In this document: positions 6,326 through 7,870 of the stretch, in pieces
Layout: every line of letters begins with the position of its first letter
Position numbering within the stretch: the stretch's first letter is position 1
NCBI RefSeq assembly: GCF_000473895.1
Contig: NZ_ASSJ01000084.1
Coordinates: 1-37,528, forward strand
DNA from: Rubidibacter lacunae KORDI 51-2
GTDB lineage: Bacteria; Cyanobacteriota; Cyanobacteriia; Cyanobacteriales; Rubidibacteraceae
DNA length: 37,528 nucleotides
Reading direction: 5' to 3'
The notes under the pieces: model-generated
The model's database searches: none
What the model was told of the DNA's origin: nothing
The model's input: only the letters and a program-made list of their open reading frames with translations
Translations under genes and position numbers: made by a program

Positions 6326-6440
6326 CAAATGCGAAAACGCTCCTGAATCCCTATCCTGAAGTGGTTTCTGGCGTTTTCTTGGAAGTGACAGGAGACAGGT
6401 TTTAGCTACTTTGAACTGCCGACACGAAGATTCTCAGCTC
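6326..6440 (-). repeat. Decayed copy of the 3' half of tRNA-Phe plus its terminator
   Basis: Read on the minus strand this is the tRNA-Phe sequence from the anticodon arm to the 3' end, followed by the same terminator hairpin as the intact gene. Shared blocks with 7741-7844 include TTTGAACTGCCGACACGA (plus strand, 6410-6427), GCGTTTTCTTGGA, TGAAG and GAATCCCTA. The copy has an extra 11 nt inside the T arm (about 6398-6408) and substitutions that break the acceptor stem, and it lacks the 5' half, so it cannot be a working tRNA. Both copies have the same orientation, about 1.4 kb apart. The arrangement resembles the two ends of an element integrated into a tRNA 3' end, but a plain segmental duplication is also possible. 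Confidence 0.85.
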
Positions 6441-6662
6441 ATGTTTTTTGATAAACTTCAAGCCTTATAAGGCTTTCATGGATTGCAATTTAGGACTGCA
6501 TTAATTATTCAAAGTTGGACGAGTAGGGGACTCGCTCTAAATATTGCTGAATTTTTCTGTTGTAGTTCTTTCCTCAATCGTAATTCAGGGAGCTCATTGG
6601 AATCTGCGGTCACTCACGGTCAATACGTCGATAAACTGAAGGCAGAGTGCGAGGCAAACTTG

Positions 6663-7244
6663 ATGCCGCAAATATCCATCCGCCTTCCCGCAATGCCATT
6701 GACGGTCACGCCAGAACAATTCGCGGCAGTCGCTGCTGAGAACCAAGACCTGCGCCTGGAACGAAAGGCGACTGGAGAGTTAGTTGTGAGTCCACCAACA
6801 GGCTGGGAATCCAGCGCTCGCAACACTCAGATTACCCGGTACTTGGCAAACTGGGCAGATGGTTTTGGTGGCTTGACGTTGGAGAGTTCGGGAGGATGTC
6901 GGCTTCCGAATGGGTCTCTATACGCACCCGATGCTGCCTGGGTCAGTGAGGCAACATTAGCCAGAGCACGACAAATGCTACCGGTGCCTGGAGAGTATTT
7001 CCCTCTATGCCCTGACTTTGTCGTTGAACTGCGCTCCAAGAGCGATCGCCTGCTTCCCTTGCAGAACAAGATGCAGGAATACATGGAAAATGGCGCACTC
7101 TTGGGCTGGCTGATCGATCCTCAGACCGGGCGAGTGGACGTGTATCGCTTAGACCATGAAGTTGAGGTGTTGGGAGAGCCCGAGGAGCTATCCGGAGAAG
7201 ATGTGTTGCCAGGATTCGTATTGCAACGCAGACGCATCTGGTGA
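6663..7244 (+). CDS. Uma2 family (DUF820) putative restriction-like endonuclease
   Basis: This is a 193-residue member of the Uma2 family, a PD-(D/E)XK-fold group that is greatly expanded in cyanobacteria and mostly without known function. Visible signs are the probable catalytic acid Asp90 in YAPDAAWVS, then CPDFVVELRSKSDRL with Glu122, LQNKMQEYMENGALLGWLID containing Lys136, and the closing VDVYR. The strict E-x-K has Arg in place of Lys here, which is common in the family. The frame is open upstream to 6483, but that part (cysteine-rich, unlike the family) looks non-coding. The ATG at 6663 has GAGG about 11 nt upstream. The gene lies alone between the tRNA-Phe gene and its decayed copy, in AT-richer DNA with one HIP1 site, which fits horizontally moving cargo. 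Confidence 0.88.
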   Translation: MPQISIRLPAMPLTVTPEQFAAVAAENQDLRLERKATGELVVSPPTGWESSARNTQITRYLANWADGFGGLTLESSGGCRLPNGSLYAPDAAWVSEATLARARQMLPVPGEYFPLCPDFVVELRSKSDRLLPLQNKMQEYMENGALLGWLIDPQTGRVDVYRLDHEVEVLGEPEELSGEDVLPGFVLQRRRIW

Positions 7245-7740
7245 TAGTCATCTCTTCCATGGGAATCAAACATGTCAGGAGCCTGTTATCTACCAATCTA
7301 CAGGGCTAAATCCGAATGATGCAGCCATAGAGTGCGAGGTAGGTATGCAATCGAAGCTTATCCTGTAAAAGCAAGGGAATCATGGCTAAGGTATGTGTCA
7401 TTTGGCTTGCTCCACTCAATGCGCTCGACAAATCTATTCCATTCATTGTTCGAAAACGATAGATCGTAAAGCTGCGCTCCAAGTTCTTCGAAATTTGGTT
7501 TTCCGGTATAGTGAGGGTGGCGCACAGGTGCTGATGAACCCTTACTTCGACACGCTCCAAACACAGCACGAGCATCACAATTAAGGACTACATTTCCGCT
7601 GTTTCAGAGCGCTGGCGATTGCAATATTAACCGCCAATATCTTTAGGGGTAGATGCTGCCCGGCCGTCCTTTGTCGAAAATTTGGAATGAATTTCCTCCC
7701 CCTTACAACTCCAATCGGCACGTTCAACTGCCAGAAGCCC
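7245..7740. other. Non-coding or degenerate DNA between the Uma2 gene and the tRNA-Phe terminator
   Basis: HIP1 sites are absent here. One minus-strand frame (7358-7564) has protein-like composition and is listed separately as a possible gene remnant. I see no integrase fragment, terminal inverted repeat or toxin-antitoxin pair. The stretch reads as decayed accessory DNA. Confidence 0.4.
7358..7564 (-). pseudogene. Possible remnant of an unrecognised gene
   Basis: A 68-codon minus-strand frame encodes a hydrophilic, protein-like stretch containing HPHYTGKPNFEELGAQLYDL and EWNRFVERIEWSKPNDTYL, ending at a TAA. The best start is only a GTG, there is no ribosome binding site, and the frame is closed a little upstream by a TGA, so if it was ever a gene it is probably a 3' fragment. 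I do not recognise the family. Its position between the two tRNA-Phe copies makes a degraded cargo gene plausible, but a chance frame is a real alternative. Confidence 0.25.
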
Positions 7741-7746
7741 CAAATT

Positions 7747-7791
7747 GAAAAACGCCGGAATCCCTAGTCTGAAGGGTTTTCCAGCGTTTTC
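7747..7791 (-). terminator. Rho-independent terminator of tRNA-Phe
   Basis: On the minus strand, 6 nt after the tRNA 3' end, AAAACGCTGGAAAACCC pairs imperfectly with GGGATTCCGGCGTTTTT around a 9-nt loop and ends in a U-run. A mutated version of the same hairpin follows the decayed tRNA copy (about 6331-6378), showing the terminator was duplicated together with the tRNA half. Confidence 0.75.
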
Positions 7792-7797
7792 TTGGAG

Positions 7798-7870
7798 TGC
7801 CAGGAGGCAGATTTGAACTGCCGACACGAGGATTTTCAGTCCTCTGCTCTACCAACTGAGCTATCCCGGC
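7798..7870 (-). tRNA. tRNA-Phe (anticodon GAA)
   Basis: This is a 73-nt tRNA with the acceptor strands GCCGGGA and TCCTGGC (one G-U pair) and discriminator A. The D arm contains AGCTCAGTTGGTAGAGC. The anticodon stem GAGGA/TCCTC carries loop CTGAAAA with anticodon GAA. The variable loop is 5 nt and the T arm is GGCAG/CTGCC with loop TTCAAAT. CCA is not encoded. The 3' half and downstream terminator are duplicated at 6326-6440. Confidence 0.97.

Follow-up and report, generated by a model that had tools for sequence, protein, structure and literature searches.

Contig C84 of the marine cyanobacterium Rubidibacter lacunae KORDI 51-2, analysed here at its whole length of 37,528 bases (the window), raises a simple question: why does the 3′ half of the tRNA-Phe gene occur twice in direct orientation, with a Uma2-family gene between the two copies? 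The published draft genome comprises 4,153,658 bp in 99 contigs (PMC3910548). It contains 41 tRNA genes, among them a single tRNA-Phe, and the locus is described nowhere in the literature that we searched. The best overall explanation, to which we assign a probability of roughly 0.88, is that integrative elements once inserted at the tRNA-Phe 3′ end, and that the interval between the copies is their decayed footprint.

The duplicated 3′ half of tRNA-Phe and the interval it encloses

The intact tRNA-Phe (GAA) gene lies at 7797..7870 on the minus strand (ARAGORN; Rfam RF00005, 70.6 bits). It is followed by what we refer to as the post-tRNA block (7665..7796, minus strand), which consists of a terminator hairpin (approximately 7748-7791) and about 80 nt beyond it, and which scores 126.5 bits against the block model described below. 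Positions 6250-6437 repeat 7665-7839 in direct orientation, taking in the 3′ part of tRNA-Phe, the terminator and about 80 further bases. This repeat, termed copy 1, sits downstream of tRNA-Phe in the same orientation as the tRNA gene. It comprises a truncated tRNA piece running from tRNA position 32, in the anticodon loop, to the 3′ end (6384..6437, minus strand, 37/43 identical), and a second post-tRNA block with a weaker hairpin and about 80 nt (6250..6383, minus strand, 130.4 bits). Beyond copy 1, as seen from tRNA-Phe, lies a chromosomal gene for a dusA-type dihydrouridine synthase (5043..6074, minus strand; PF01207, E 6.1e-92).

An earlier note on this DNA had proposed that the 3′ half of tRNA-Phe is duplicated together with its terminator, and the duplication proves to be real. 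Copy 1 aligns with the tRNA-Phe region at a local score of 91, against a maximum of 26 among 1868 comparisons with other window stretches, and at a genome-wide blastn E of 1.4e-14. Identity reaches 80% between 6335-6383 and 7748-7796 and 93% between 6410-6437 and 7812-7839. The span given in the note (6326-6440 with 7741-7844) does align but is too short, and the insertion in the T arm of copy 1 measures 10 nt in our alignments rather than the 11 nt claimed. When the flanks are aligned on their own, omitting the tRNA, similarity extends about 95-130 nt past the tRNA 3′ end, with a score reached by 0 of 1000 dinucleotide shuffles. It stops outside both ends of the repeat (scores of 18 and 15, where shuffles average 15.9 and 16.2). 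The terminator hairpin has a predicted energy of −22.9 kcal/mol at tRNA-Phe versus −14.8 kcal/mol in copy 1.

The Uma2-family gene reported in the interval is indeed there (6663..7244, plus strand; Pfam PF05685, E 1.1e-37). Its frame is open from 6483, with 6663 judged to be the likely start, and it may be the cargo of an element. A Uma2 relative with 44% identity also lies beside tRNA-Phe in two other genomes (G017 and G045); this was taken as a coincidence, because the relative lies outside the insertion in G045 and in the opposite orientation relative to the tRNA. An 81-codon open stretch without known relatives (7361..7603, minus strand) could be either a gene remnant or chance: searches returned only the stretch itself among 195 genomes at E ≤ 0.01, and nothing among plasmids at E ≤ 0.1. 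The GC content is 49% in the interval compared with 58-59% in its surroundings. HIP1 occurs once in the 1545 bases of the interval, 14 times in 6073 and 70 times in 29,658 bases around it; the near-absence remarked on in the note thus holds as a count, but is weak evidence alone and not significant by itself, since only about 3.6 occurrences would be expected.

As the note had also observed, the interval lacks an integrase gene. No trace of one was found there by tblastn, and there was no match to an excisionase. Frames of at least 250 aa from around the integrases of two relatives (G020 and G015) and of R. lacunae itself gave nothing credible against the interval, the lowest E of 0.02 coming from a non-integrase frame, and the R. 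lacunae integrase on contig C49 also gave nothing credible there (lowest E 0.75). Because no integrase gene lies inside, the interval can be regarded only as a remnant and not as an element.

The post-tRNA block and an integrase family beside tRNA genes

The block is present 3′ of tRNA-Phe, in copy 1, and next to one tRNA-Met gene (contig C74), where its end is a TTTAGTC-type pair. Pairwise scores among the three are 74-83. The blocks of copy 1 and tRNA-Phe are 59% identical, and each is 59-61% identical to the tRNA-Met block. A clear pairing of copy 1 with tRNA-Phe is confined to the hairpin: within the first 44 flank columns, all 12 informative columns group these two against the blocks at tRNA-Met and on C49. 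Copy 1 retains a single arm-type octamer, TTTTAGTC (6258..6265, minus strand), which aligns with the pair TTTAGTCA/TTTTAGTCA beside tRNA-Met, and the block of tRNA-Phe (7665..7796) contains no intact arm-type repeat.

We considered whether the block might be a general tRNA terminator repeat, and dropped this idea on finding it at 2/41 tRNA flanks; the 39 other flanks in the genome score no higher than 30 against the three blocks, with a maximum of 42 among 1025 shuffled flanks. A 14-base match to the terminator, with many copies in the genome, turned out to be an IS-like repeat end and, at two more places, part of a transposase-like gene; all of these were taken as chance matches. In the fetched own-genome stretches L130-L144, an IS-like end (GGGCTTGCTGAAAAAGGCTGGAAT...TTCCAGCGTTTTCT) occurs at 16 sites, spread over 12 contigs.

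A covariance model was built from the three blocks (tRNA-Phe, copy 1 and tRNA-Met on C74) and run against 291 genomes of the order. It marks four places in R. lacunae, of which three are trivial because they were used to build the model; the fourth, at C49:39858-39989 (E 1.7e-16), is independent. This block lies 3′ of a tRNA-Met 3′ fragment (98% over positions 24-74) in a stretch containing no intact tRNA gene, and is 76% identical to the tRNA-Met block. As the tRNA-Met gene and the fragment are on different contigs, they are only putative flanks of one element. Among eight genomes of the same family as R. lacunae, seven gave no match at E ≤ 1, and the eighth (G006) gave a weak one (E 0.36) away from tRNAs. 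Of 40 matches in other genomes, 24 were fetched for context. Two of these lie directly 3′ of a tRNA, namely tRNA-Phe in G018 (E 0.0044) and tRNA-Cys in G207 (E 0.16), and the 22 with no adjacent tRNA are probably chance.

The G018 contig with tRNA-Phe and the similar block (C238, L163; positions 3909-4040 and 7842-7997) carries a 52-aa piece resembling the C-terminal end of an integrase, 3.9 kb from the tRNA, and is apparently the site of a broken element. Elsewhere in R. lacunae, a sub-threshold tRNA match of 17.7 bits (C17:6789-6848; L158 190-249) looks by eye like the 3′ part of tRNA-Pro, beginning at the anticodon arm, with a terminator-like hairpin after it, and is perhaps another integration scar of the same genome.

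Approximately 100 bp from the tRNA-Met fragment on C49 is a gene for a 380-aa integrase (38570-39709), with primase/helicase and cytosine methyltransferase genes as neighbours. The protein matches a PHROG integrase (E 1.4e-9) and the Pfam phage integrase (E 5e-4) and arm DNA-binding (E 0.0016) domains, both of the latter below the curated cut-offs. Relatives at E ≤ 1e-20 are found in 139/388 genomes of the order, its own included. Fifty loci were fetched and two removed as the same gene, leaving 48 that represent the top-scoring matches, own included, and no random sample. The fetched stretch contained a tRNA gene or tRNA 3′ piece at 34 of these 48 loci and no tRNA at 14. By tRNA, they divide into Phe (14), Met (10), Cys (4), Glu (2), His (2) and Tyr, Arg and Thr (1 each), with one locus counted twice; the names are those given by ARAGORN, and an 85-nt 'Met' (L328) is doubtful. 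The 12 truncated tRNA pieces, including two pairs from tandem copies, start at positions 24-32. Copy 1, starting at 32, begins in the anticodon arm as they do.

A tandem arm-like repeat of the TTTAGKC type was seen at 20 of the 34 tRNA-linked loci, with no arm pair at the other 14, versus 9/884 control windows; this count is no independent test, because the pattern was loosened after viewing the sequences; for fragments, moreover, the scan took in an additional 150 nt 5′ of them, and each control was a single 260-nt window. An earlier, stricter pattern was matched upstream of the integrase at 7/30 loci, and 8 times in 71,943 nt elsewhere. The R. lacunae genome also contains a broken relative of the C49 integrase with three stops (C89:7471-8415), beside which there is no tRNA piece and where block scores are weak (≤6 bits).

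Insertions at tRNA-Phe in related genomes

G017 and G045, which belong to the same genus, form an empty/filled pair at tRNA-Phe, with about 19.4 kb inserted in G045. On one side, the sequence common to the two genomes comprises the 600 nt preceding tRNA-Phe, the tRNA itself and four more bases; on the other, it runs from within the tRNA through the next Uma2-type gene. The G045 integrase belongs to the C49 family, has one internal stop and begins about 140 bp from tRNA-Phe. What such an insertion leaves behind is directly visible in this pair: the tRNA stays intact, and at the other end of the inserted DNA a displaced 3′ piece precedes the former chromosomal flank, that of the empty site.

Tandem arrays were seen in three further genomes, in which flanks were compared against shuffles of single bases. 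G020 has two more tRNA-Phe 3′ pieces, about 21 and 41 kb from the tRNA, and integrases near the tRNA and piece 1 that fall outside the C49 family at E ≤ 1e-20. Here, the flank after piece 1 matches both the flank after the intact tRNA (score 149; shuffle maximum 65) and that after piece 2 (150; 71), while the match between piece 2 and the intact tRNA is marginal (84; 76). In G371 (contig C81) and G379 (contig C186), two equally scoring family integrases lie 18.0 and 20.3 kb apart, respectively, each with a tRNA-Phe 3′ piece, indicating tandem elements. The flanks after the two pieces match in G371 (108; shuffle maximum 64) and do not match in G379 (47; 53), both comparisons being rough because the observed stretches were 700 nt long and the shuffled ones 400 nt.

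The interval between dusA and tRNA-Phe was also compared in the eight genomes of the same family. This decided nothing, because the two genes are far apart on one contig in 3/8 and on different contigs in 5/8; dusA was found in 0/8 of the fetched tRNA-Phe neighbourhoods. As these relatives do not share the locus, an empty site for this exact place is lacking.

Proposed history of the locus and its alternatives

The scar of tyrosine-recombinase integration that the earlier note had put forward is favoured by three results. The truncation point of copy 1 matches that of the pieces beside integrases in relatives; within this one genome, the block recurs at another tRNA and also next to an integrase; and an empty/filled pair exists at tRNA-Phe in relatives. 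The note's small or mostly deleted element stands as regards the deletion, but there was probably more than one element.

Based on this, we propose that the attachment site of the element would have consisted of a tRNA copy reaching from the anticodon loop as far as the 3′ end, together with the terminator and the arm-site block. A tyrosine recombinase, which may have come from the C49-type family, would have joined this site with the chromosomal tRNA-Phe. The element-supplied 3′ sequence would thereby restore tRNA-Phe, whose present 3′ half is then the putative attachment core, and the displaced 3′ half would move to the far end. As to order and number, we infer that probably at least two elements arrived in succession, with copy 1 as the junction between a younger one, adjoining the tRNA, and an older one on the dusA side. 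Each would subsequently have lost its integrase and most of its genes, with Uma2 possibly left over.

What makes such accretion at this tRNA-Phe probable is the element-type block that comes after the displaced piece. A simple insertion of the G045 type leaves chromosomal flank at this position, whereas the window has a block. The G020 array serves as the model here: after its tRNA fragments comes a block of the kind that also follows its intact tRNA, and this by analogy suggests accretion in the window too. G371 agrees with this pattern and G379 does not.

The G379 copies, with no shared sequence after the fragment, would instead suit a single insertion into a tRNA-Phe that natively bore the block, by an element whose attachment site held the same long stretch. 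The hairpin type common to copy 1 and tRNA-Phe, with its 12 concordant columns against Met and C49, points the same way. However, the 39 other tRNA flanks lack the block, seven of the eight same-family genomes have no match to it at E ≤ 1 (with the eighth match weak and away from tRNAs), its native presence at Phe as well as Met would be a coincidence, and the simple insertion in G045 ends in the flank of the empty site. We consider this account unlikely, although it fares better than those that follow. A recombinase-free segmental duplication that took in the 3′ half of tRNA-Phe with its flank, and was later split by insertion of Uma2, is decidedly improbable. It would agree with an interval free of integrase, and Uma2 genes are common in cyanobacteria, but it does not account for why copy 1 is cut off at position 32, why the same block occurs both at tRNA-Met and next to an integrase, or why the G020 array matches. 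Finally, we give next to no credence to a remnant of a type V-K CRISPR-associated transposon (such transposons, too, insert downstream of tRNA genes) in which copy 1 would be the self-targeting spacer, since copy 1 and its block span 188 nt, far above the length of a spacer, and the end motifs TGTACA and GACAAATTA have 0 occurrences in the window, even though some relatives, such as G006, seem to carry such ends after tRNA-Phe. The repeated TGACAAATTA..TGTCG sequences after tRNA-Phe in G006, G030 and G052 (L085, L019 and L034) resemble ends of type V-K CRISPR-associated transposons, so that tRNA-Phe may attract two unrelated kinds of element.

Read as the footprint of integrative elements, the locus can be compared with CIME-type remnants, in which integration and transfer genes are lost and attL/attR kept, and whose accretion is treated in a review (PMC5704250). 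As in these, attachment-like repeats are retained, integration genes have been lost from the interval, the tRNA is restored and accretion is likely; unlike these, the repeats are worn, about one gene is left and there is no sign of mobilisability. As in tRNA-integrated elements generally, a direct repeat of the tRNA 3′ end has the intact tRNA at one end, although no integrase gene lies within. The cyanobacterial elements with C49-type integrases sit beside tRNA-Phe, tRNA-Met and others, have truncated pieces spanning the anticodon arm to the 3′ end and in many cases arm-like tandem repeats. The locus resembles them in lying beside tRNA-Phe, and differs in that the window has no integrase and the duplication passes the terminator into the arm block. 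Prochlorococcus tycheposons, as described in PMC10872708, have a tRNA gene at the border and a tyrosine recombinase; the interval has neither a recombinase at its tRNA border nor any other typical gene, and we do not claim membership.

The type of event is in itself ordinary, integration at tRNA 3′ ends and accretion being well known from the literature covered by the same review (PMC5704250). The twist is that a terminator/arm block is common to sites at different tRNAs and forms part of the only known tRNA-Phe gene. We tentatively suggest, at slightly less than even odds, that this block is a travelling part of the elements that can be refitted to Phe, Met and perhaps Cys, and that tRNA-Phe has thus come to rely on a dead element for both its 3′ half and its terminator. 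What appeared as an isolated repeat becomes a record of insertions at a cyanobacterial tRNA-Phe, probably a layered one, and the scar is linked with a family of integrases that lie next to tRNA genes and are accompanied by arm-like repeats and a terminator block. The approach offers a way of detecting integrase-free scars in other genomes. If the proposed history holds, an essential tRNA gene would keep 3′ sequence supplied by an element long after the death of that element.
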